Source: Ruania alkalisoli
GTDB lineage: Bacteria > Actinomycetota > Actinomycetes > Actinomycetales > Beutenbergiaceae
DNA length: 64,000 bases
Assembly (NCBI RefSeq): GCF_014960965.1
Contig: NZ_CP063169.1
Coordinates: 2,265,581 to 2,329,580, forward strand
Reading direction: 5' to 3'
In this document: positions 53,358 through 63,356 of the stretch, one piece after another
How the letters are laid out: each line of letters starts with the position of its first letter
Position numbering within the stretch: the first letter of the stretch is position 1
Position numbers and translations under genes: made by a program
The notes under the pieces: model-generated
Told to the model about the DNA's origin: nothing
The model's input: only the letters and a program-made list of their open reading frames with translations
Database searches by the model: none

Positions 53358-53421
53358 CGACGACCTCTGTCGCACGTCACCCGCTCGGACTTGCCTGCGG
53401 GTCATCGAGCACCCGGTCGAG

Positions 53422-53468
53422 AACGACGGAGCCCGGCACCTCCTGAGAGGGTGCCGGGCTCCGTCGTT
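53422..53468. terminator. Strong terminator, probably the original rpoD/ferritin bidirectional terminator
   Basis: Perfect 19-bp arms (53422-53440 and 53450-53468) around a 9-nt loop, about 65 bp after the ferritin stop and 33 bp outside the left att repeat. In the uninterrupted chromosome this lies about 50 bp beyond the rpoD stop, convergent with ferritin, so it would have ended both transcripts. The element now places it 8.3 kb from rpoD. Confidence 0.8.
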
Positions 53469-53500
53469 GTCCAGGTCGTTGTACAGCGGACCTCGCTCGA

Positions 53501-53527
53501 GCGAGCCTCAGTCCAGGTAGTCGCGCA
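53501..53527. repeat. Left att repeat (attL) carrying an orphan copy of the rpoD 3' end
   Basis: 27 bases identical to 61805-61831. On the minus strand they encode the last rpoD codons, RDYLD, and the stop, now detached from the gene. Identity stops at both edges (53500/61804 and 53528/61832 differ), defining the crossover core. Confidence 0.9.
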
Positions 53528-53564
53528 CTCTGGAAGCCTGAACGCTGTACGAATCCGCATAATC

Positions 53565-53603
53565 CCAGGACGAGCCACAGCACTGTGGCCCGAAATATCC
53601 TGG
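53565..53603. repeat. Nested inverted repeats beside attL
   Basis: Outer arms CCAGGA (53565-53570) and TCCTGG (53598-53603) enclose GCCACAG/CTGTGGC (53574-53580, 53583-53589). They lie 38-76 bp inside the left repeat and may be integrase or excisionase arm sites, or the operator of the gene starting at 53621. Confidence 0.5.
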
Positions 53604-53620
53604 ATTGAGAGGGCGGATCG

Positions 53621-54133
53621 ATGGACACGATCGAGAACAAGCTGACAGGCACCCCGTGCCTGGCACGCGACCCGCACGACGATGGTGGAGGGGTCGAGCT
53701 GCACTACCTGTGCACCCTCGACAAGGGTCACGACGGTGACCACGAAGCGATGGACACCCACGACGGCACGCTCGGGCACGCGTGGTCAGAGCCGGTGAGC
53801 GAGCGCCGCGCCGTCGCGGGCATCCTTCGGGAGGTGTTGACCGAGGCAGGTCTGAGTCAGGCGGATTACGCGCGCCAGGCGGGGATCTCGGCACGGACGG
53901 CCTCACGACGGCTCAGTGGGCTGTCGCGGGTGTTCGTCACAGATCTGCTCGCGGTGGCTCAGCTCGTCGGCCTGGGGCGGATGAGCGAACTGGTAGAGCG
54001 GATCGAGTGCGGGCTGGCGGTGGCTTTGTCGGTAGGGCCTGGCCGCCCTTCCCCTGCCATCTGCGCAGAGTGCGCGATCGCCCACAACGCGCTTCGGTCG
54101 GAGCAGATGGCATCCGTCGGAGGTGCGCGATGA
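53621..54133 (+). CDS. Element HTH protein with N-terminal Cys/His motif
   Basis: 170 residues. The N-terminal part has C13 and a C31-x6-H-x2-H-like motif (LCTLDKGHDGDHEA), a small metal-binding pattern I associate with actinophage and mobile-element proteins. Residues ~76-108 (LTEAGLSQADYARQAGISARTASRRLSG, split here by position) read as a Cro/C1-type helix-turn-helix. First gene inside attL, reading away from it, next to nested inverted repeats: a candidate repressor or excision regulator (inference). Its stop overlaps the next ATG (ATGA). Confidence 0.72.
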   Translation: MDTIENKLTGTPCLARDPHDDGGGVELHYLCTLDKGHDGDHEAMDTHDGTLGHAWSEPVSERRAVAGILREVLTEAGLSQADYARQAGISARTASRRLSGLSRVFVTDLLAVAQLVGLGRMSELVERIECGLAVALSVGPGRPSPAICAECAIAHNALRSEQMASVGGAR

Positions 54134-54621
54134 GCCAGATCGTGACCGACACCGAGCTGCGCCATCAGGTGGTCCAGGCGCTGGAGGGTCGCGGCGCTGA
54201 GTTCGACGTTGACGCCATCGTGGCGGCCCTGATCGAGAACTTCGGGCGCGTGGACGTGGACAGCACCCCGCCGGTGGCGTTCTGGGCCATCGCGCGGTCA
54301 CAGCGGAAGCTGCCGGCGGTCCGGTGCTTCGAGTTCTGCGTCTACGGCGACGGCCACGCACGCGAGCACCTAGAAGAGGACCAGTGGTGCACCACGCCAC
54401 TACGGAAGATCCACGCCTCCTGCTACCCGCCGCCGCAGCAGCGCGGCGACGATCGCGAGGTCTTCGAGATCTCCGGGCAGGCGTGGCACCACGGGCGCGC
54501 CCCGGTGATCGAGATGGCGATGAGCGGCCGTCCCGGCTACCGCATGACGGCCGATGAGGCTCGGCGCATGGCTCACGCGCTGCTCAGCACCGCTGACGAA
54601 CTGGAGGGTCGCGGAGCCTGA
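54130..54621 (+). CDS. Element protein of unknown function
   Basis: 163 residues, soluble. Contains a Cys/His-rich middle (FEFCVYGDGHAREHLEEDQW) and ends in helices typical of small element proteins (ADEARRMAHALLSTADELEG). I cannot assign a family. It is coupled by ATGA overlap to the HTH gene upstream, so the two act together or are co-regulated, and it ends at a strong hairpin. Confidence 0.7.
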   Translation: MSQIVTDTELRHQVVQALEGRGAEFDVDAIVAALIENFGRVDVDSTPPVAFWAIARSQRKLPAVRCFEFCVYGDGHAREHLEEDQWCTTPLRKIHASCYPPPQQRGDDREVFEISGQAWHHGRAPVIEMAMSGRPGYRMTADEARRMAHALLSTADELEGRGA

Positions 54622-54625
54622 CTCT

Positions 54626-54654
54626 GGATCACCGGGATGAGATCTCGGTGATCC
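54626..54654. terminator. Bidirectional terminator in the element
   Basis: GGATCACCG (54626-54634) and CGGTGATCC (54646-54654), a perfect 9-bp stem with an 11-nt loop, between the convergent stops at 54621 and 54690. Confidence 0.7.
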
Positions 54655-54689
54655 GGGGTGAGGTTCCGACCTCCTGCTGATAGGTCCGT

Positions 54690-55301
54690 CTATCGTTGCA
54701 GGTGGGCCAGTATCTCCGGTGAGGTCACCAGCACCACCGGGGCACTGCCATCCCTACCAGCGGCGCTGCCCCGCGTTGAGATGGCGACCAGCTCGTCGCC
54801 GGCGTCGAGTAGGCGTGCGAGACGTTTCGCGTTCTGTTTGTTCACGTATCCCGCGGGGCGCCGGGCCTTCTCCGCGTAGACTGCGACGGCGCTCGGGTCG
54901 TGCTCGTTGTCGGGTTCACGTACCAGGCGCACCGGGCTGCCGGGAGTGAAGCGGCCAGTACGTACCGCGGCCTCGTGGTGGGAGACGCCGCGCACGCGGA
55001 ACACGGTGATCCCGATGCGGCGCAGGTTCGGTGACGACGGATTGACCCATCGTCGGCCAGGAGCTTCCAGCACGAGCCGGTCACGAGCACGGACGAGCCG
55101 CAGGTTCGGTAGCCCGTTCGCGTCGAGCCGGAGCAGCGTCTCCTCCTCCTCGCGCGGGACGTACTCGGAGGAGTGCACTGTCGCGCGTCGCGCCGGCGGT
55201 GGAGCGGAGCGTCGGGTCGGTGCCCTCCGCTCCACTCGTGCGGTGATCACAGGATTCTGCCGCTCATCGCGCCGGAACAGCCGCTGCCAGAATCCCGCCA
55301 T
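54690..55301 (-). CDS. HIRAN-domain protein
   Basis: 203 residues. The C-terminal half has the HIRAN signature: FRVRGVSHHEAAV, then VRLVREPDNEHDPSAVAVYA and AGYVNKQNAKRLARLLDAG. HIRAN domains bind DNA ends or single-stranded 3' termini, usually attached to SNF2 helicases or nucleases, but here the domain stands almost alone after a basic ~80-residue N-terminal region. A role in recognising damaged or replicating DNA of the element is inference. Start: TAGGGT (55314-55309) is 7 nt before the ATG, so a leaderless, own-promoter gene. Confidence 0.8.
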   Translation of the reverse strand: MAGFWQRLFRRDERQNPVITARVERRAPTRRSAPPPARRATVHSSEYVPREEEETLLRLDANGLPNLRLVRARDRLVLEAPGRRWVNPSSPNLRRIGITVFRVRGVSHHEAAVRTGRFTPGSPVRLVREPDNEHDPSAVAVYAEKARRPAGYVNKQNAKRLARLLDAGDELVAISTRGSAAGRDGSAPVVLVTSPEILAHLQR

Positions 55302-55384
55302 GGTGTGAACCCTAGCGGTTGCCAGTAAGGGGGTAGATGGTGTCGCGATGCTCGTTGTCAGACCTCGCTGCCAGAATCGTGCTC

Positions 55385-55840
55385 ATGACACAGAACGAGG
55401 ATGTAAAGGGCCGACTTTGGTTTGAGCGCGACTATCCCGTACTGCGAGCAACCGCGGAACTGATCGAGGAGTCTGGCCGCGGCGTGACCAGCGACCGGAT
55501 CGCCGAACGCGCGACGATGCAACAAGCGGATGTTGTCAGGGCACTGCGGGACCTTTCCACGCGCTTCCTCGACGTCCAGGACGTCACCACGTACGACGGT
55601 GAGGACTACTACGCGCTGGCGCTAACAGCCGATGGCCTCGTTGCCGCTGACCTGTGGCCGTCCTCGGACACCGTCGCAGAGCGGCTGATTGATGCGCTTG
55701 AGCGTGCCCTCGATGAGGCGCCCAGCGATTCGCCGAAGGCAACGCGGATCCGAGCAGCGTTGGACTCTATGAAGGATCTCGGCGTCGGCGGCGCCGGGAA
55801 CGTGCTGGGGCAGGCGATCTCGTCGGCCCTGGGGCTATAG
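55385..55840 (+). CDS. Element protein, winged-helix-like, unknown function
   Basis: 151 residues. The first ~75 residues (FERDYPVLRATAELIEES, then SDRIAERATMQQADVVRALRDL) resemble a winged helix-turn-helix that senses or binds nucleic acid; the rest is helical with a Gly-rich end. No family recognised. Start: CAGAAT (55372-55377) ends 7 nt before the ATG, the leaderless layout with one mismatch. Divergent from the HIRAN gene over 83 bp; upstream of the non-coding origin-like block. Confidence 0.68.
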   Translation: MTQNEDVKGRLWFERDYPVLRATAELIEESGRGVTSDRIAERATMQQADVVRALRDLSTRFLDVQDVTTYDGEDYYALALTADGLVAADLWPSSDTVAERLIDALERALDEAPSDSPKATRIRAALDSMKDLGVGGAGNVLGQAISSALGL

Positions 55841-56037
55841 CGGTCCCACGGGTTCTCGATACCCCCAGGGGAGGTCCCCCCTCTCCCGCTCGCCCCCGCA
55901 CCTCCTTGGCATAGCGGAATCTCTCTCTAGCATTTTTCCACACACCCCCCCCGGGGGGGCTCGGGGGGATCTCGCTATGCCAGGAAGGTGCGGGACGGCC
56001 GGGGGTCGGGGTGGCCCTCCCCCACCCTGATACACCG
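55841..56037. other. Non-coding block with origin-like inverted repeat
   Basis: Between convergent genes. Arms 55895-55916 and 55973-55994 match at 20 of 22 positions as an inverted repeat. The 56-nt loop holds an A+T-rich TTTTCCACA (55934-55942, one base from the E. coli DnaA box TTATCCACA) and a run of eight C then seven G (55945-55959) followed by more G-rich sequence. The combination is unlike the rest of the window and would suit a replication origin of the excised element, or a structured RNA or termination region. Confidence 0.5.
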
Positions 56038-56077
56038 ACGACCCCGGCCACCTTTGACTGTGGGTGACCGGGGTCGT
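56038..56077. terminator. Terminator at the end of the element's replication operon
   Basis: ACGACCCCGG (56038-56047) and CCGGGGTCGT (56068-56077) pair perfectly; loop of 20 nt with CCAC/GTGG-like extra pairing. It is 16 bp from the stop of the leftward operon. Confidence 0.7.
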
Positions 56078-56093
56078 GGTCCGGGGGTGCTGG

Positions 56094-56861
56094 CTACCGA
56101 GGCGCGAGCGAGTGCTGTCGCGACCAGGCGCGCTCGGCTGATTCGTTCTCGGCATCCCGTTCACGCTGGCGCTGCACGCCCTCGACTCGCCGATAGAAGC
56201 CGTCGCGGTCGGTCAGCACCACGGGTGCGAGGGTCGCGGCCCGCCACACTTCGGGCTTCCCGCCATGGGAGTAGGCAAGCTCCGTGACCTCTTCGGCGTC
56301 GAGGTCGGCGAAGGCCAGCGGTCCGAGTTCGCGGTTGAGCTGCTGGGGCCCGAAGAGCAGTCCCCACATCTTGCGGATCGTGCGGAGGGTGCCGACGGCA
56401 TCGATCGCTTCTCGCCAGGCTGGCACGTGCGCGGTCGCCAGTGCGGTCGGCGGCGTCTTGCTGGCCAGGTCGATGGCGGGGTGCGCCTGAGAGAACGGCA
56501 GGATGCGTTCACCGGCCTCTGCTGCGGCAGTGCTCCATACCTTAAGTAGTGCTGGGGTGTGGCGACGCAGGACCTCTCCACGTTCCCGGTCGGCCTCAGT
56601 GTGGATCAGGTCAGCAATGCCGAGCCGCTCCAGTGCCCAGCGGGTGACGTGGGCTTGCACGTCCGGGTCGGTGGCGGGGTCGCGCCCGTCGGCCACCGCG
56701 GCCTTCCATGTGCGGGCGAGGGCTTCCCGGTCGACCTCGGCGGCGCTCACGTTGGCGCCGTTGTCGATGCGCTGCAGATCGGTCTCGAGCGCCTTGGGGA
56801 CGTTCAGGCCGGCCTTCTTGGACAGGGTGCGGATCAACGAAATGGTGGTAGCGGTACTCAT
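56094..56861 (-). CDS. Element protein of unknown function, last gene of the replication operon
   Basis: 255 residues, helical and charged, no membrane segment. Starts STATTISLIRTLSKKAGLNV; no recognisable Walker, HTH or zinc motif. The C-terminal ~35 residues are a basic/acidic helix (EGVQRQRERDAENESAERAW). Its ATG overlaps the stop of the 65-residue protein (TGATG), so it belongs to the same coupled series that starts near 60278. Could be a capsid-, primase- or replication-accessory protein; nothing decides. Confidence 0.68.
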   Translation of the reverse strand: MSTATTISLIRTLSKKAGLNVPKALETDLQRIDNGANVSAAEVDREALARTWKAAVADGRDPATDPDVQAHVTRWALERLGIADLIHTEADRERGEVLRRHTPALLKVWSTAAAEAGERILPFSQAHPAIDLASKTPPTALATAHVPAWREAIDAVGTLRTIRKMWGLLFGPQQLNRELGPLAFADLDAEEVTELAYSHGGKPEVWRAATLAPVVLTDRDGFYRRVEGVQRQRERDAENESAERAWSRQHSLAPR

Positions 56862-57058
56862 CAGTTGTCATCCTCCTGGTTGTTATTGGGGAACAGTCGG
56901 CGCACGAGGTCGCGGCCGGGGTCTCCAGTGAGTTGGGGTGTGGTTGGGCGGTTGAACAGGCGACGGGTGAAGCTGCGCATCTGGTTCGCGGCGTCGGGGT
57001 CGCGTCCCATGTCGCGCAACATCTCGGGGCGTTCGTGGTCGTGCTCACTGCTGGTCAT
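56861..57058 (-). CDS. Small element protein (65 aa)
   Basis: Acidic start (TSSEHDHERPEML), then RSFTRRLFNRPTTPQL and an Asn-rich end. Coupled to both neighbours by TGATG overlaps; AAGGA lies 9 nt upstream. Unknown function; its real status rests on the continuous overlap chain and conserved codon use. Confidence 0.6.
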   Translation of the reverse strand: MTSSEHDHERPEMLRDMGRDPDAANQMRSFTRRLFNRPTTPQLTGDPGRDLVRRLFPNNNQEDDN

Positions 57059-57273
57059 CAGCTCGTTTCCTTTCCGGTGGTGAAGACGTAGCCGCGGGCG
57101 CGGTCGTCGGGGTTGAGGTGCATCCCGCACGCGGGTGCGAAACGTTGGGCGCCGGGTGCGAGTACGACGTGCTTGTGCTCGCGGGAGCAGTAGGGGCATC
57201 GCACGTGAGTGAACCTGCGGCTCACACGCAGCACCTCGGCCTCGGGCGCGTCGGTGGCGAGTGTGTGGTTCAT
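57058..57273 (-). CDS. Small Cys-containing element protein (71 aa)
   Basis: C26-x2-C29 and C49 with nearby His residues (HVRCPYCSREHKHVV, FAPACGMH) suggest a zinc ribbon. ATG overlaps the stop of the 59-residue protein (ATGA) and its TGA overlaps the next ATG. Function unknown. Confidence 0.65.
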   Translation of the reverse strand: MNHTLATDAPEAEVLRVSRRFTHVRCPYCSREHKHVVLAPGAQRFAPACGMHLNPDDRARGYVFTTGKETS

Positions 57274-57449
57274 CGGATCGCCCCGGCTCGGATCGCCAGG
57301 CGCACTGCACCGCACTCGGTGCACCGCAGCAGTTGGTGGGAGCGGGTACCGCGACCCTCGGCCTCCCACGTGCCCGTCGGGCAGCCGTGCCGGTGCTCGA
57401 TACCGTGCTCGTCCACCACGGGCGGACGGGACTTCTTCGCGTTGCTCAT
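57270..57449 (-). CDS. Small Cys-containing element protein (59 aa)
   Basis: C23 and C43-x2-C46 (LRCTECGAVR), basic ends, probably zinc-binding. A very clear AAGGAG lies 5 nt before the ATG at 57449, and both ends overlap neighbouring genes by four bases, so this short frame is likely translated even though it is under 60 codons. The order of two small zinc-type proteins in a row is typical of phage-like operons. Confidence 0.65.
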   Translation of the reverse strand: MSNAKKSRPPVVDEHGIEHRHGCPTGTWEAEGRGTRSHQLLRCTECGAVRLAIRAGAIR

Positions 57450-57787
57450 CCCAGCTCCTTCCGAGCGTTCGCGGCAGCCTCGGCCAGCCCGGCCCGCAGG
57501 TCGTGAGCCAGGTGCCCGGTCTCGTGCAGCCTGTCGGTGACGTCCAGCACCGGATCAAGGACCTGCTCGGTCATGTTCCGCAGCGCGGCCGCGGCGACGT
57601 ATCCGAACGCACCGGTCCCGGCCTCGGCGAGGTGCTGCTCGCTGACCCGCTCCAGCTCGGCACGGTCACCGCACGCGGCAGCCATGTCGTAGGCGAAGCG
57701 CACGGCCTGGGACTGGATCTGATCCATGTCCACGAACGCTGCCGGGGTGCCGTCCTCGTCGGTCACGAGGTAGTTGTCAGTGGTCAT
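57446..57787 (-). CDS. Element protein of unknown function (113 aa)
   Basis: Helical protein beginning TTDNYLVTDEDGTPAAFVDMDQIQ, with long amphipathic helices to the end. AAGGAG 9 nt before the ATG at 57787. Overlaps the WhiB-like gene upstream by 11 bases and the 59-residue gene downstream by four. No family recognised. Confidence 0.68.
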   Translation of the reverse strand: MTTDNYLVTDEDGTPAAFVDMDQIQSQAVRFAYDMAAACGDRAELERVSEQHLAEAGTGAFGYVAAAALRNMTEQVLDPVLDVTDRLHETGHLAHDLRAGLAEAAANARKELG

Positions 57788-58079
57788 CGGTGGTCTCCTT
57801 CGGTGGACGACCGCGCCGCGGGGCACGATCAGATTCGGTGAGCCCGGCCCACACACCGGCCGGCTCGGGATAGTTGGTGTTGTACTCGTGGCACGCGGTC
57901 CGGGCGAAGCACGCCAGACACAATCGGGCGACGTACTCCTGATCCCCGGGATCGTCCGAGGTCCACTCCGCGACGGGTGTCTTCACACAAGGTGCTGGGC
58001 GGCCGGAGTCGGCCAGATCAGCGAGGATCGAGACCAGCCTGTTGTGTGCAGCCAGCTGCTCGGCGTCGGGGCGGATCAC
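57777..58079 (-). CDS. whiB: WhiB-like Fe-S regulator with AT-hook-like tail
   Basis: 100 residues. Four Cys at 31, 54, 57 and 63 give the C-x22-C-x2-C-x5-C pattern that holds the 4Fe-4S cluster of Wbl proteins, followed by the turn GVWAG at 75-79 (G[V/I]WGG in the family) and a basic tail RRGRPPK (88-94) whose RGRP core is an AT-hook as in WhiB7. Wbl proteins bind region 4 of the principal sigma factor and redirect it. GTG start overlaps the ATPase stop (GTGA). That the element sits in the gene encoding exactly that sigma factor is notable. Wbl proteins are known on actinophages. Confidence 0.8.
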   Translation of the reverse strand: MIRPDAEQLAAHNRLVSILADLADSGRPAPCVKTPVAEWTSDDPGDQEYVARLCLACFARTACHEYNTNYPEPAGVWAGLTESDRAPRRGRPPKETTDDH

Positions 58080-59431
58080 TGGTGACCACCGCCTCCGAGG
58101 GCGCAGTCCACACACTTGGACAACGTGGCCTTGATCGGATTGCCGCACCCCGGGCACTGCCCAGTCTCGGCAGTCTTCGCAGTCTTGGCAGTCTCAGTGA
58201 TCACCGGATCTGGTGCCGAGACTGGCAGCGGAGACTGCGCCGGGGCAGTGTCGGTTGCAGTCTCCGTCGGGATTCCCTTGTTCACGGAGACTGCGGAATC
58301 TGCCGAGACTGCCGAGACTGGCACCCGATACACCCACGGGGCACCCGGCCCAGCGGGCCGGGCCACTCCCCCGAGGTCGGTCACCACGCCGGCGATCCGC
58401 TCCGGGTTGTGCCCCGCAGCGCGGGCTGCGGATTTCGCTGCCGACGCTGCAGTCTCGATGAACCCTTCGTTGACGGTGCCGTGCTCGCTCAGGTACTCCA
58501 CCAGGAACGACTTCACCCGATCCGCTGCCGAAGGTGGACGGGCCTCCTCGGTGGCTTGCGCGGCCCACATCTTCACCAGCTGCTGAATCGTGCTCGCAGC
58601 ATCGACCGGACGAGCCAGGCGCGCGACCGTACCCGGATCGGTGGCCGTGGCCTCCCGAGCCTGGGAGACCTCCAGGTCGTACCGGATCGCGTTCACCAGC
58701 GCGGTGGTGTTCGCCTTGTCCGGCCCGACATACAGCGTCTGTCCACGCTCGTCGTCCTTGGTCGCAGCCACCAGCGTCAGGCGGGCCTTCTGCCGCAACG
58801 CGACCGTCCCGCCCATGCGGTCCCGCGTGCTCGTGGTCTGCAACCTGTTGGTATGCGTCAACAGCAACGCGGTGGCGCCGGTGCGCTTGCAGATCTCCGA
58901 CCACGGAGCCAGCGCCTGCCTGGCCTGCTGGGTGTCGGCCACTCGGATGCCCGAGGGCACCACATCCAGCCACGCATCGACCACGATCAACGCGGCCTCG
59001 TGCTCGAGAGCGGCCTCGTAGACCAGCTGGTGATCACCAGGCACCGTCGGCACCCCGGATCCATCAGCGGCCGTGCACAGCACCTTCACGTGCCGCAGGT
59101 CAGCACCGGCAGCTTCCAACCCGGCACGTACCTCGCCCCACAGATCCTCGGTGAGGATCAGCAGCACGTTGCGCGACTCACCAGGCGGTAGCCCGATCGC
59201 GGGCATCGCCCGGCCCGTCGTGAGATGAGCAGCCACAGCCACCCACCACAACGACTTCCCGATGCCCTCCTCGCCGACCAGCACCGCAGTCGCAGCCCTG
59301 GGAAGCGTGCCCACTGCCAGCCACTCCATCGGACGGTCGTCGAGCTCATGGGCATCCCACACCCGCAATCGCTCCCGGATCTCCTCATTGATCGTCTCGT
59401 CACCCTCGAACGGATCGACCAGCTCACTCAC
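58076..59431 (-). CDS. RecA-fold AAA ATPase, RepA/DnaB-like replicative helicase candidate
   Basis: 451 residues. Walker A GEEGIGKS near residue 55, Walker B ALIVVDAWLD near 150, and a sensor-type LLLTHTNR near 190 give the RecA-like hexameric helicase layout seen in RepA-type plasmid and phage proteins (AAA_25-like). Residues ~290-365 look like a winged helix; then a low-complexity Ser/Ala/Thr stretch, and a C-terminal zinc ribbon CPGCG...CVDC. It most likely unwinds the element's DNA. GTG start is inside the stop of the gene before it. Ten GAGACTG-type heptamers cluster in its 3' third. Confidence 0.8.
   Translation of the reverse strand: MSELVDPFEGDETINEEIRERLRVWDAHELDDRPMEWLAVGTLPRAATAVLVGEEGIGKSLWWVAVAAHLTTGRAMPAIGLPPGESRNVLLILTEDLWGEVRAGLEAAGADLRHVKVLCTAADGSGVPTVPGDHQLVYEAALEHEAALIVVDAWLDVVPSGIRVADTQQARQALAPWSEICKRTGATALLLTHTNRLQTTSTRDRMGGTVALRQKARLTLVAATKDDERGQTLYVGPDKANTTALVNAIRYDLEVSQAREATATDPGTVARLARPVDAASTIQQLVKMWAAQATEEARPPSAADRVKSFLVEYLSEHGTVNEGFIETAASAAKSAARAAGHNPERIAGVVTDLGGVARPAGPGAPWVYRVPVSAVSADSAVSVNKGIPTETATDTAPAQSPLPVSAPDPVITETAKTAKTAETGQCPGCGNPIKATLSKCVDCALGGGGHQ
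58162..58320. repeat. Cluster of ten GAGACTG-type heptamers inside the ATPase gene
   Basis: Four CAGTCT(C/T) units at exact 9-bp period (58162, 58171, 58180, 58189), then GAGACTG at 58218, 58231, 58287, 58305, 58314 and CAGTCTC at 58258. Eight of ten are identical, two differ at one base. They encode the low-complexity linker of the protein; they could also be iterons for an initiator. Confidence 0.55.
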
Positions 59432-59700
59432 GCGACCACCCCGTTTCGCCGCAGCCGGTCACGGACCCGCTCAGCGTGAGCGTGTTCACCACGACGCTCG
59501 GCCAGTACGTCCAGCGGCACCCCGTCAGCAGCCACAGCCACCACGGCAGCAGCACGACGGTCCAACTCGGCCTGCTCATCCTCAGCGTGGCCGCGACCGA
59601 TCTCGATACCGCGCAGCACGCCGGCGGAGTAGTACGCCAACGCGATCGTCTGGGCCCTCGGCGTCATCGAGGCCAGCGTCGGGATCTCGACCTCAGTCAC
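59428..59700 (-). CDS. Small element protein (90 aa)
   Basis: Helical, with ALAYYSAGVLRGIEIGRGHAEDEQ in the middle, a pattern I have seen in uncharacterised actinobacterial element proteins placed before a RepA-like ATPase. GTG start overlaps the previous stop region and its TGA overlaps the ATPase start (GTGA). Function unknown. Confidence 0.65.
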   Translation of the reverse strand: MTEVEIPTLASMTPRAQTIALAYYSAGVLRGIEIGRGHAEDEQAELDRRAAAVVAVAADGVPLDVLAERRGEHAHAERVRDRLRRNGVVA

Positions 59701-59935
59701 GACGACCACCGCCGTCCACCGGCACCAACTGCACGAGGATCAGCTCGGCGTCGTCACCACGAGCATGAGCACGCTTCACAGCACGCTCGGCCGCCGGCAA
59801 GTTGAAGTACAAGTGACGACGCACCGTCTTGCCCCGCACCAGCACCGCGAACGAGGTGCGGAAGAACTCCGCGGCGTCAATCTCTGAGCGAGAGTCTGCG
59901 GGGGTCGGTAGAATCGGTGTTGATCGGCCAGCCAC
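59693..59935 (-). CDS. Small element protein, start uncertain
   Basis: The well-coded part is residues from SEIDAAEFFRTSFAVLVRGK to the end (AELILVQLVPVDGG). GTG 59935 gives 80 residues; the same frame is open to a GTG at 60010 but the extra N-terminus (Pro/Gly-rich) looks non-coding. A different frame from ATG 59982 (PAPPAAEPRAGEMIRWLADQ) looks protein-like just upstream, so a frameshift between them is possible. Overlaps the next gene by 8 bases. Confidence 0.5.
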   Translation of the reverse strand: MAGRSTPILPTPADSRSEIDAAEFFRTSFAVLVRGKTVRRHLYFNLPAAERAVKRAHARGDDAELILVQLVPVDGGGRRD

Positions 59936-59990
59936 CTGATCATCTCGCCCGCCCTCGGTTCCGCAGCCGGGGGCGCTGGCATGTCGGGGA

Positions 59991-60278
59991 TCAAGCAACC
60001 GAACCACCACCCGAGGTCAGCTCGGCTTCGGCCTCAGTGGCCTCGTCGGTCAGTTCACGTGCGCGGCGACGGGCACGTGCTGACTTGAGCGCAAGACGCT
60101 GGAAGTACGCCTTGCGCAGATGCTCGGCACGACGGGGATCTCCGTCAGCTTGAGCAAGAAACTTGTCGTAGAGCGCTCGACGCGCCGGTGCGGTGCGAGC
60201 GGCACGATCAGCGGTTGCGGCCCAACTCTGGTGGGCGGCGATGGAGGCTGCGAGACGACGCTCTGCGTCTGTGGCCAT
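59991..60278 (-). CDS. Conserved small actinobacterial element protein (95 aa)
   Basis: Highly basic: ASIAAHQSWAATADRAARTAPARRA, split by position, then EHLRKAYFQRLALKSARARRRARE. I recognise the SIAAH-x-SWA / DRxARTAPAR / AYFxRLAxKSAR pattern from many uncharacterised actinobacterial genomes, often beside integrases and RepA-like genes. Function unknown; the charge suggests DNA or RNA binding. GAAAGG lies 10 nt before the ATG. First gene of the replication operon proper. Confidence 0.75.
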   Translation of the reverse strand: MATDAERRLAASIAAHQSWAATADRAARTAPARRALYDKFLAQADGDPRRAEHLRKAYFQRLALKSARARRRARELTDEATEAEAELTSGGGSVA

Positions 60279-60365
60279 GGGGCGGACCTTTCGGTGCCCG
60301 GAGTCACCAGACTCCGGTTCGCCAGTCCATGGCGGGCCGCGTTACCGGCCGTGCGTTGTGCCTCG

Positions 60366-60371
60366 ACTATA
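60366..60371 (-). promoter_or_regulatory. Candidate -10 of the replication operon
   Basis: TATAGT on the minus strand, about 88 nt before the ATG at 60278 and overlapping the stop of the gene upstream. No good -35 is seen. Confidence 0.4.
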
Positions 60372-60795
60372 CGGCATAGCGTGTGCGATCCGAGCGGATG
60401 CGAACCTCGGTGTGTTGCGCATTCAGGTCCGCCTGAAACTCCTCGGCGGTGAGCAGGTAGTCGAGGACGTGATCGCACGAGACACCCAACTGCATGCGCG
60501 GATCATCCGGGTAACTCAGCGCCGAACTGCTGCGCAGGTAGGTGCGCTCGCGCCAGTGGTTCTCGCCGTCGTAGGTGTTGGCAAGCCGGCCCGCTTCGCT
60601 GCTCCGCTGCTCGTTCTCCTCGGGAGAGTACTTGTAGCGCAGCTGGTGTAAGACGGCATCACCGTCTGGCATTGGGATGACATCGAGCAGGAGGCATCGC
60701 TTCGGCGCACACCGGTATTGAAGCCGTGGGAGACCGGAGGGGTTGCTCACTGCTGCTACATAAATCTGCTCAGCCATGCTGTCGGAAGATGTCAC
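60367..60795 (-). CDS. Element protein of unknown function (142 aa), coupled to the integrase
   Basis: GTG 60795 overlaps the integrase stop (GTGA); ATG 60777 is an alternative start. Middle region has two Cys (C29, C34) and a Tyr/Asn-rich charged core; the end contains HTEVRIRSDRTRY. No HTH or zinc motif, so an excisionase role, suggested only by position after int, is weak. Unknown. Confidence 0.6.
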   Translation of the reverse strand: MTSSDSMAEQIYVAAVSNPSGLPRLQYRCAPKRCLLLDVIPMPDGDAVLHQLRYKYSPEENEQRSSEAGRLANTYDGENHWRERTYLRSSSALSYPDDPRMQLGVSCDHVLDYLLTAEEFQADLNAQHTEVRIRSDRTRYAV

Positions 60796-61694
60796 AGGTC
60801 CCCCAGGTTCAGATCTCGAGCTTCGGCAGCTGCACGTTCGGCCGCTCGGGCTTTCGTGTACCGCTGGAGCATGTCCGGCCGGGTCCAGCCGGCTACGGCC
60901 ATGAGTCCTCCCTCGGATCCACCGGCAGCGAGCCAACGGTGGGCAGCGGTGTGGCGCAGCTGGTGGGGATGGAATCCTTCGAGCCCGGCGAGGCGGGCGC
61001 GGTAGGTCAGGCTCCGGTAGAGCCCGTCGTAGCTGAAGCCCTTGCCCCGGTCCCCCAGCCACAGAGCATCGGTTCCGGCGAGCCGGTGCTCGCGCCGCAC
61101 CCGCATGTAGCGGTCGATCGCCTGTCCAGTCTGCGGACCGAATGGCACCGAGCGGCCCTTGCCACCCTTCCCGCGGCGCACGACGGCGACACCGGCCTTC
61201 AGGTCCACGTCGGAGACCAGCAGCCCGACGATCTCGCCGGCGCGGGTGCCGGTCTCGACCATGAAACGGATCAGGGCCGTGTCGCGGCGTTCCCGCAGTT
61301 CCCTGCCGGCGCACGCTTTGAGCAGATCACGCAGCTGATCGTCGGTGAGCGGGTGCACCACCTTGTCGTCGAGCTTCGGCGACTTGATCCCGGTCAACGG
61401 ATCGGTGGGGATCTCGTCCTCGTCGGCGAGCCACTCGGAGAAGCGCCGGACGCCAAGCTGGCGCGATCGCACTGTGGTGGCTTCCCTGCCCGCGTCGAGC
61501 AGGTGGGCCGTGAACGCGTTGACGTTCGACTTGTCGATGATCAGCGGGCGGTCGTGCTCGCGGCAGAAGTCGAGGTACTGCTCCACGCCGGTGCGGTAGG
61601 TCTTGACCGTCTCCGGGCTCTTGCGCTGAGCACGCAGCGACAACTCCCAGGAGTCCACGAGGGCGTGGAGATCGGGGGCACGGCGTTTCACCAT
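60792..61694 (-). CDS. int: Tyrosine recombinase/integrase
   Basis: Catalyses integration and excision between attP and the rpoD 3' end. 300 residues: SAM-like N-terminal core-binding domain (about 8-95) and catalytic domain with R151 (GTRAGEI), K179 (GKGGKGRSVPF), H244-x2-R247 (HPHQLRH), W270 in the second-His position (AGWTR) and nucleophile Y279 (LQRYT). XerD-like length without a long arm-binding domain. Start: TAGAGT (61707-61702) ends 7 nt before the ATG. It lies 118 bp downstream of the rpoD stop on the same strand, with no clear terminator between. Confidence 0.95.
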   Translation of the reverse strand: MVKRRAPDLHALVDSWELSLRAQRKSPETVKTYRTGVEQYLDFCREHDRPLIIDKSNVNAFTAHLLDAGREATTVRSRQLGVRRFSEWLADEDEIPTDPLTGIKSPKLDDKVVHPLTDDQLRDLLKACAGRELRERRDTALIRFMVETGTRAGEIVGLLVSDVDLKAGVAVVRRGKGGKGRSVPFGPQTGQAIDRYMRVRREHRLAGTDALWLGDRGKGFSYDGLYRSLTYRARLAGLEGFHPHQLRHTAAHRWLAAGGSEGGLMAVAGWTRPDMLQRYTKARAAERAAAEARDLNLGDL

Positions 61695-61701
61695 GCCCCC
61701 G

Positions 61702-61804
61702 ACTCTACTCTGATATCTGCACTAGAAGCGCTGTGCTCTGCTAGAGTCACAGCATCCAACTACAGAAATCGTTGGAATCCTGCGGATAATCGCAGATTCG
61801 GACG
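61702..61804. promoter_or_regulatory. attP-arm and int promoter region
   Basis: Holds the int -10 TAGAGT (61707-61702, minus) and inverted repeats TCCAAC/GTTGGA (61755-61760, 61771-61776) and CTGCG/CGCAG around GATAAT (61780-61795). The GATAATC here resembles CATAATC near attL (53558-53564), so they may be integrase arm sites. Confidence 0.5.
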
Positions 61805-61831
61805 GCGAGCCTCAGTCCAGGTAGTCGCGCA
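61805..61831. repeat. Right att repeat (attR) at the rpoD stop codon
   Basis: 27-bp perfect copy of 53501-53527. It spans the final rpoD codons, the TGA (61812-61814) and 7 bp beyond, so the recombined gene keeps its protein unchanged. Confidence 0.9.
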
Positions 61832-63356
61832 ACACCTGTGACCGGCTCGGGTGGCGCAACTTCGACATCGTCTTGGACTCAATCTGACGAATTCGTTCAC
61901 GGGTCACCCCGTAGACCTTGCCAATCTCGTCCAGCGTCTTGGGCTGACCATCCGTGAGGCCGAATCGCATCGACACCACACCAGCCTCCCGCTCGGAGAG
62001 TGTGTCCAGCACCGAGTGCAACTGTTCCTGGAGCAGGGTGAAACTCACCGCGTCCGCCGGCACAACGGCCTCGGAGTCCTCGATCAGGTCACCGAATTCG
62101 GAGTCGCCGTCTTCTCCCAGTGGAGTGTGCAGGGAGATCGGCTCTCGTCCGTACTTCTGGACCTCAACCACCTTCTCAGGCGTCATGTCGAGTTCCTTGG
62201 CGAGTTCCTCCGGGGTGGGTTCACGCCCCAGGTCCTGCAGCATCTGCCGCTGTACCCGCGCAAGCTTGTTGATGACCTCGACCATGTGCACTGGGATGCG
62301 GATCGTGCGAGCCTGGTCCGCCATCGCGCGAGTGATCGCCTGCCGGATCCACCACGTCGCATAGGTGGAGAATTTGTACCCCTTGGTGTAGTCGAACTTC
62401 TCCACAGCGCGGATCAGTCCGAGGTTCCCCTCCTGAATCAGGTCGAGGAACAACATGCCACGCCCGGTGTAGCGCTTGGCCAGTGACACCACCAGCCGCA
62501 GGTTGGCCTCCAGCAGATGATTCTTGGCCCGGCGCCCATCCTGGGCGATCCACTGCATCTCGCGCCGCAGCTTCGGCGCCATCGACTGGGACTCGCTGCC
62601 GAGCTTTTCCTCGGCGAACAGACCTGCCTCGATCCGTTTCGCGAGTTCGACTTCCTGCTCGGCGTTCAGCAGTGCGACCTTGCCGATCTGCTTCAGGTAG
62701 TCCTTGACCGGATCAGCAGTCGCACCGGCGGTCACCACCTGCTGCGCAGGAGCGTCGTCATCATCGGAGTCGGAGTAGACGAATCCGCCCGCTTCCTCAG
62801 TCTCCGCGTTTGCTGCCGCAGCCTCAGCGGTGGCAGCAGCGTTCTCCTCGGTGGCCGGCGCCTCGGTTTGAATGCCATCAGTATCGGCCTCGACCGGCTG
62901 CGGCCCGGAGGATTTCGCGCCAGCAGCCGGTCGCTTCGCCGCGGCCTTCTTGCTCGATGCCTTGGTGGCGGGCTTCTTCGCCGACGCCTTCTTACCGGTC
63001 CCGCTGGAGCCGCTCGTCGCCTTCCCGCGCGAGCCCGAGGAGGCATTGGCCGAGGCCGCCTCATCCCGGCCATCACCGGCTGAAGCACCTGGCTCGTCCA
63101 CCGTGGCGGTGGTCTGGCGACGCGAGGCCGCGTTGGCGACGGCACGTGCCGGGACATCGGTGACGACGATCTTGGCATTCTGCATAGCGCCCAGAACCTC
63201 CTTGAGACGGCGGGGTTTGACGTCGGCCTGCTCACACGCCTCGCGGAACTCGGTCGCGCTGAGCGATCCTCGCTCCAGACCCGTTCGGAACGCCTTCTGC
63301 AGAGCAGCATGCTCAAACTCGCGGGGCAGCACGACAGACGAACGAGGCGACGGCAC
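61812..63356 (-). CDS. rpoD: Principal RNA polymerase sigma factor (sigma-70, HrdB/SigA type)
   Basis: Directs RNA polymerase to housekeeping promoters. 514 residues: region 1.1-like start ([19 protein letters not shown]), a long Lys/Ala/Ser-rich, then acidic linker (about 95-205) typical of actinobacteria, and conserved regions 1.2-4: [27 protein letters not shown] (2.3-2.4), RIPVHMVE (3.0), TRERIRQIE and KLRHPSRS (4.2). GTG start has GAAAGG 6 nt upstream and a perfect TATAAT about 65 nt upstream. Its last six codons are supplied by the att repeat, and its probable original terminator is now at 53422. Confidence 0.96.

Follow-up and report, generated by a model that had tools for sequence, protein, structure and literature searches.

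Among protein-coding genes, guaA, prfC and icd are known for 3′ ends that are restored by the elements integrating into them. The actinomycete integrative and conjugative elements (AICEs) are defined by a TraB-type translocase together with an initiator of the RepSA, RepAM or RepPP type. As the available excerpt of one source describes them, AICEs of actinobacteria mostly use tyrosine integrases and integrate at gene 3′ ends, in the vast majority of cases into tRNA genes (PMC3218068). Here, we describe an element of 8,304 bp in Ruania alkalisoli (NCBI RefSeq assembly GCF_014960965.1) that appears to have integrated at the 3′ end of rpoD, the gene of the principal sigma factor. It lies in the window, by which we mean the whole stretch of 64,000 nucleotides that was analysed (contig NZ_CP063169.1, positions 2,265,581 to 2,329,580 of the forward strand).

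The original prediction for this locus, made from the sequence without database searches, knew of no described element using the housekeeping sigma gene. Our literature searches agree with it: no paper was found that names rpoD, sigA or hrdB as an attachment site, and automated island catalogues may hold such sites unremarked. No such site is named in the available excerpts of PMC12884075, PMC8190616, PMC10654092, PMC3218068, PMC5704250 and PMC13175485, a search for these terms returned no passage from the accessible text of PMC8092301, and rpoD figures as a reference gene in the excerpts of PMC6035254, PMC4891358, PMC8844411 and PMC10763509. The mechanism proposed below is a classical one. 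What is new to us is the target gene, which we found unreported, and the fact that several kinds of element share it.

An insertion at the 3′ end of rpoD

The insertion is bounded by an exact direct repeat of 27 bp (53501–53527 and 61805–61831) which reads, in the sense of rpoD, TGCGCGACTACCTGGAC-TGA-GGCTCGC, that is, the last rpoD codons, the stop codon and 7 bp beyond it. With up to three mismatches allowed, two copies were found in the window and none in 100 dinucleotide shuffles. In the 4.45-Mb single-contig genome the core occurs at these two places only, rather than recurring widely. The rpoD-side copy, named attR (61805–61831, minus strand), covers the last codons and stop of the rpoD open reading frame (ORF; 61812–63356, minus strand), and its core recurs at the rpoD ends of related elements. 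The frame of rpoD is kept, and its last 896 bp are 82–93% identical to rpoD of 22 other genomes of the family. The distal copy, named attL (53501–53527, minus strand), adjoins the host rpoD terminator and a ferritin gene; its inner flank was compared in register with those of 10 other integrated elements and of the Streptomyces phage Kromp. The start of a tyrosine integrase gene lies at 61694, 111 bp inward of the repeat; the gene is oriented away from rpoD, co-directional with it and 118 nt past its stop. No tRNA gene lies near the insertion, the four of the window all being found at 544–2207.

The integrase (300 aa; 60792–61694, minus strand) matches Pfam Phage_integrase and the PHROG integrase category. 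Its catalytic residues are R151, K176, H244, R247, W270 and Y279, and these six columns are invariant in all 32 aligned relatives. It falls below the curated NCBIfam cut-offs for XerC (142.6 bits against 335.15) and XerD (137.3 against 329.6).

The rpoD end was found in 23 of the 24 family genomes (genomes are cited by our own labels). In the congener G005, 93% identical over the 896-bp rpoD query, the sequences left and right of the insert both align, and the two alignments lie about 140 bp apart. There, rpoD, terminator and ferritin gene are uninterrupted, and a hairpin nearly identical to that at 53419–53471 of the window directly follows the stop. By alignment, the same uninterrupted order is present in G006, G001 and G004. 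For the other sites of the family the judgement is based solely on the 83 bp that follow the core and on an integrase search (E 1e-40), which gave matches in G000 and G002 only. The G002 integrase, 42% identical, was rejected as a user of the site: it does not lie at rpoD, and the rpoD of this congener has no insert. The draft genome G014 looks occupied: sequence with arm motifs (see below) extends from the rpoD stop to where the contig ends, and another contig has a second core together with distal arms that match. In this draft, a search for related integrases gave none above 35% identity.

We consider it very probable that the insertion is a site-specific integrative element, whose tyrosine integrase joins the core of its attachment site attP, a copy of the rpoD end, with the real rpoD end. 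This reading draws on the repeat, the intact integrase, the empty sites, the same site in relatives, the conserved architecture of the attachment sites and a phage attP. The integrase would recombine the attP core, with its copy of the RDYLD-stop end, with the 3′ end of rpoD. The protein would remain the same after recombination, its 5′ part being encoded by the host and the very end, the stop and the 3′ flank by the element, and the original rpoD terminator would be moved to the far end of the insert. We infer the exact crossover and the codons supplied by the element, the function of the arm sites, present activity and replication by the AAA_25 protein described below.

The original prediction had read the perfect 27-bp repeat, its overlap with the end of rpoD and the position of the integrase correctly. 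Its claim that the rpoD product is unchanged agrees with the RDYLD-stop end kept on the rpoD side in all eight complete core pairs, the window's included. The search that it proposed, for insert-free rpoD genes and for the same integrase beside rpoD, gave both, the empty site in a congener and 12 further genomes with a related integrase at this place, which supports the reading of the insertion as an element that carries an integrase and sits in the 3′ end of the principal sigma gene.

Related integrases and their attachment sites

Related integrases were searched for in overlapping samples of 396 genomes of the order (E 1e-50), 396 of the phylum (E 1e-60) and 345 of the class (E 1e-80). The WhiB protein, the hosts of the matching phages and the sigma sequence point to Actinomycetota as this phylum. 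The order sample gave 12 matches in 11 genomes. Every match with at least 62% identity (seven: the window genome, G052, G392, G121, G211, G314 and G296) is found directly after rpoD, and none of the five with at most 52% is. From the phylum sample (18 matches in 13 genomes), 16 matches were newly fetched, two of them at rpoD (G625, G436) and 14 not; from the class sample (10 matches in 9 genomes), seven were newly fetched, four at rpoD (G819, G868, G989, G797) and three not. In total, 13 genomes, the window's counted, carry a related integrase directly after rpoD, and one of them, G436, belongs to another class. On a maximum-likelihood tree of 32 integrases the rpoD label is clustered (3 changes, with 0 of 500 shuffles as low), and the window integrase falls into no strongly supported small group; five weaker phylum matches (G440, G436 C150 and C80, G703 C116, G771 C161) were left out of this tree.

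The core itself is common, a degenerate 18-bp version being exact in 231 of the 396 order genomes. Among these 396, genomes with two such cores (eight besides the window's) were picked by eye. G014, G052 and G121 have elements at rpoD, while G302, G329, G109 and G096 were rejected, their second core being the end of a second sigma-like gene. In G096 (L088, L096) about 1.9 kb separate rpoD from this second sigma-like 3′ end, which lies downstream in the same orientation and could be a partial duplication. In G162 (L090) the rpoD stop is immediately followed by a perfect 18-bp tandem copy of the gene's end, which may be the scar of a lost element.

The same association is seen in viruses. The integrase is matched by 202 phage records, 144 of them from Mycobacterium phages, the best match being Kromp (59% identical). 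The Kromp genome holds TGCGCGACTATCTCGACTGA, with 2 mismatches in 20 to the rpoD-end core of the window, starting 97 bp before its integrase gene; no attachment site is annotated in the stretch of the record examined. In IMG/VR, a scan with the single integrase protein gave no match and one with the family alignment gave 15 loci. At the 11 with at least 51% identity, the core is present in all seven that extend more than 50 bp before the integrase; the other four start at or close to it. A scan for the 20-bp core pattern returned 13 stretches on 11 contigs, ten with a related integrase by the core and one with distal arm motifs. The host rpoD end is attached in four of the ten, both cores are present on two contigs, of 35.4 and 18.7 kb, and four contigs are of phage size (58–79 kb).

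What these elements carry besides the integrase is diverse. Among the seven first-found elements and 6.9 kb of Kromp (a comparison that did not take in G819, G625, G989 and the later-found elements), the integrase is the sole large gene in common, the other shared genes amounting to three small-protein matches, one strong (69% over 71 aa, G121 and G314) and two weak. Pfam recognizes a capsid and a minor-tail gene in G392, a D5-type primase in G314, a prim-pol in G121, polymerase A and type I restriction genes in G296, a TrwC relaxase in G052 (draft, split) and a transposase core in G211. Since the cargo differs and the integrase is common, the element of the window is one user of a shared integration module. 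Judged by these placements, use of the rpoD end by the integrase group is widespread in the phylum, and phages, islands and small elements all carry such integrases. The element of the original prediction, taken there as a single case, is not an isolated one.

Eight elements have both cores, at distances of 8,304 bp (the window), 8,854 (G392), 6,118 (G211), 10,429 (G314), 30,169 (G296), 19,550 (G819), 10,855 (G625) and 15,345 bp (G989); in G121, G052 and G014 the two cores are identical and on different contigs. The family-wide core spans about 20 bp (TGCGCGACTAYCTSGACTGA), against the 27-bp repeat of the window, and varies at synonymous and stop positions. In the eight two-core elements, identity between the copies never reaches upstream of the core start. 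Copy differences are synonymous or in the stop codon (TAC/TAT, CTC/CTG, CTG/TTG, TGA/TAA/TAG) with one exception, in G211, so the coding end of rpoD is kept. G314 and G296 have TAT in the rpoD-side core and TAC in the distal copy, and the five other sampled genomes of each genus have one TAC-type core, presumably at rpoD. This pattern suggests that crossover would take place within the first 10 bp of the core and that the element supplies the last rpoD codons.

Putative arm sites of the integrase flank both cores. On the integrase side (61706–61734, minus strand) they comprise ACAGCGCT at 61727–61734 and a neighbouring AGATATC, with a near-fixed offset from the core in relatives. On the distal side (53541–53602, minus strand) they are ACAGCGTT (53541–53548), ACAGTGCT (53579–53586) and a GGATATT near 53595. 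All 12 distal flanks have a word resembling ACAGCGYT at −21 of the core if two mismatches are allowed, and 10 of the 12 have one with at most one mismatch. On the integrase side such words lie at +95 to +97 in 10 of 15 sequences (at most one mismatch), at +85 in G625, G989 and Kromp, and at +96 with two mismatches in G052; G436 has no good match. Elsewhere in the elements, exact copies of these words are few. GATATY words are found just outside them. We infer that both kinds of word are integrase arm sites.

Several observations weigh against the proposed integration at rpoD or restrict it. The case is made from sequence, the arm-motif offsets are given without a formal shuffle control, and in G211 the distal core copy, which is not translated, shows one nonsynonymous change. 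On the tree, the rpoD users form one clade in 0% of 200 bootstrap trees. Three integrases with 60–61% identity (G771 twice, G695; L126, L135, L127) lie in three other genes. The insertion DNA there resembles the rpoD core by eye (an ACTACCTSGA-like stretch), and the best sigma gene in these genomes ends in RDYL-stop. A 56% identical integrase of G676 (L128/L162) lies at the 3′ end of what we take, from its translation, to be an acyl-CoA ligase gene, with a 26-bp repeat, and the rpoD end of this genome has the core nonetheless. Those of G376 and G070 (52% and 50%; L105/L163, L106/L164) are at the 3′ end of what is presumably ffh, with a 24-bp repeat in G070; no convincing second copy was found in the 20 kb fetched from G376 (14 bp at most). 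The integrases of G988 (53% and 52%) and G1045 (52%) are likewise elsewhere than at rpoD. Taken together, these placements indicate that the group is not strictly rpoD-specific.

Some of these sites deserve mention in their own right. The integrases of G771 and G695 look as if integrated at secondary sites. The ffh gene could be a second housekeeping gene used like rpoD, by the sister integrases of G376 and G070. In G988 (L146), the 52% identical integrase lies about 200 bp after a tRNA-Met gene, with a closely related second copy about 11 kb away.

Gene content and the displaced terminator

Besides the integrase, the element encodes an AAA_25 (RecA-fold) ATPase, a probable replication helicase (58076–59431, minus strand; Pfam E 1.2e-19); about half of it aligns, at 24–25% identity, with proteins of Microbacterium phages whose annotation is primase/helicase or RecA-like. 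A WhiB-like regulator (57777–58157, minus strand) is matched by Pfam Whib and by PHROG WhiB families. The HIRAN-domain protein (54690–55301, minus strand; Pfam E 7.9e-13) also matches the PADLOC candidate-defence models PDC-M03B (best E 1e-8). A helix-turn-helix protein is a probable repressor (53621–54133, plus strand; Pfam HTH_3 just above cut-off, PHROG transcriptional repressor). The remaining genes include a phage protein of phrog_2842, to which no function is assigned (59991–60278, minus strand; E 1.1e-19), an ORF with a weak DUF6907 match under the family cut-off (54130–54621, plus strand; 24.3 bits against 26), a 255-aa ORF with neither family nor plasmid match (56094–56861, minus strand) and a 167-aa ORF with no family match (55337–55840, plus strand). 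The integrase, RecA-fold helicase, WhiB and HIRAN genes that had been predicted are all matched by Pfam. Small proteins are present as well, and the hits behind the zinc type predicted for them fall under family cut-offs. In agreement with the claimed lack of packaging and transfer genes, no capsid, terminase, relaxase or Tra family was found among the 15 ORFs scanned with Pfam.

This gene content does not separate an integrative plasmid from a phage satellite. In plasmids, the element gave no megablast match, its AAA_25 protein only 24–27% matches in two plasmids, the 255-aa protein no match, and the Kromp integrase none at E 1e-40. Spread between cells may use a helper phage or the conjugation of another element. 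That the element is a satellite travelling in helper-phage particles is a serious possibility, if short of probable. It is compact, with an integrase, a repressor-like protein, a WhiB, a replication-type ATPase and no structural gene found, and phages with kindred integrases use the same site; on the other hand, no packaging, capsid-remodelling or helper-interference gene was recognized among its ORFs, and no helper phage turned up, none having been specifically searched for.

The hairpin that resembles the intrinsic terminator of host rpoD (53419–53471, minus strand; inverted repeat with 22-nt arms, 95% complementary) is now displaced by about 8.3 kb from the rpoD stop. Defining a strong hairpin as one with z below −2 in the 80 nt after the stop, we found one at 20 of 21 family sites without an element (median z −5.3), against 6 of 15 occupied or attP sequences (14 genomes and Kromp, the latter strong; median z −1.1; 4 of 9 in an earlier run on nine of the 15) and 12 of 212 internal control stretches of eight elements. 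The occupied and attP sites differ from both sets (Mann–Whitney p 1.4e-4 against internal stretches, 4e-5 against empty sites). In viral sequences, leaving out L197 (a near-copy of L196) and the distal flanks L190, L195 and L201, the hairpin is strong in 8 of 9. Most naturally read, these counts mean that attP often comes with a replacement terminator, one that many integrated copies are without; the 6 of 15 genome and phage sites, as against 8 of 9 viral ones, led us to reject such a terminator as a universal feature. The rpoD-side hairpin of the window is weak (z −1.1) and the native terminator 8.3 kb away, hence read-through from rpoD into the integrase gene is predicted.

The hairpins after the core could instead be palindromes bound by the integrase or a directionality factor, which we think somewhat unlikely. 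Short inverted motifs (GCAGGTCA / TGACCTGC) do recur near the core on both sides, by eye, and 9 of the 15 genome or phage sequences have no strong hairpin. Nevertheless, the eight strong viral hairpins stand directly after the stop, in the same place as in 20 of 21 element-free family sites, and their sequences vary between elements. Returning to replacement terminators, it is tempting to extend the idea to a broader picture, which we offer as a tentative and on balance unlikely one: the sigma-gene end would be a phylum-wide landing pad and attP a repair cassette of last codons, stop and terminator. In small elements like that of the window, the terminator part would have decayed, so that rpoD transcripts enter the integrase gene and the integrase supply tracks housekeeping transcription. 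The use of this site also raises the question whether docking at the main sigma gene may alter its termination or integrase expression.

The weak hairpin also bears on a further possibility, namely that the element is what is left of an integrated phage or of some other element and is now dead, its mobility lost. In this respect the window differs from most viral copies, its element is small, and the relatives at the site include phages and the short G392 element with its capsid and minor-tail gene. Set against this are a full-length integrase with all catalytic residues, two identical cores, and the retention of the arm motifs, the AAA_25 ORF and the repressor-type ORF; we regard the loss of mobility as unlikely. 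Finally, that the repeat is a by-product of duplication or homologous recombination at rpoD, with the integrase there by coincidence, is scarcely credible: the tandem copy in G162 shows that the rpoD end can be duplicated, but integrase and core stand in the same arrangement in 13 genomes, those elements that were compared differ in cargo, and the core is found inside phage and viral contigs.

Comparison with known systems

The closest described relative of the integration module is that of Kromp (MH744420), whose tyrosine integrase (gene 36) is 59% identical to that of the window, with 18 of 20 core positions shared and arm-like words in register (2 mismatches). Kromp differs in being a 58-kb phage that shares only the integrase with the element in the 6.9 kb compared, and in having a strong hairpin after the core. 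It has been propagated on Streptomyces coelicolor M145 (PMC13175485). The Mycobacterium phage SirDuracell encodes an integrase about 46% identical to that of the window, but has no rpoD core within 3 kb of it (best 6 mismatches in 20); as the sole one examined of the 144 Mycobacterium records, it led us to reject these integrases as users of the site. The element resembles AICEs, as the accessible part of the literature presents them, in its tyrosine integrase and 3′-end integration (PMC3218068). It differs from them in that no TraB-type or AICE-Rep-type gene was recognized among its 15 Pfam-scanned ORFs.

The core encodes the conserved sigma C-terminus RDYLD-stop, so one integrase group can serve phages and other elements across many hosts. 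Competition for the single rpoD site is to be expected among such elements, and the module is a candidate integration vector, with one essential gene as its expected target across many actinobacteria. In restoring the 3′ end of a conserved gene, the element is similar to those with trmE integrases, exemplified by SGI1 in the excerpt available (PMC8409611). Its likeness to the systems at trmE, guaA, prfC and icd is one of target use, and it differs from all four in that its target is the housekeeping sigma gene.

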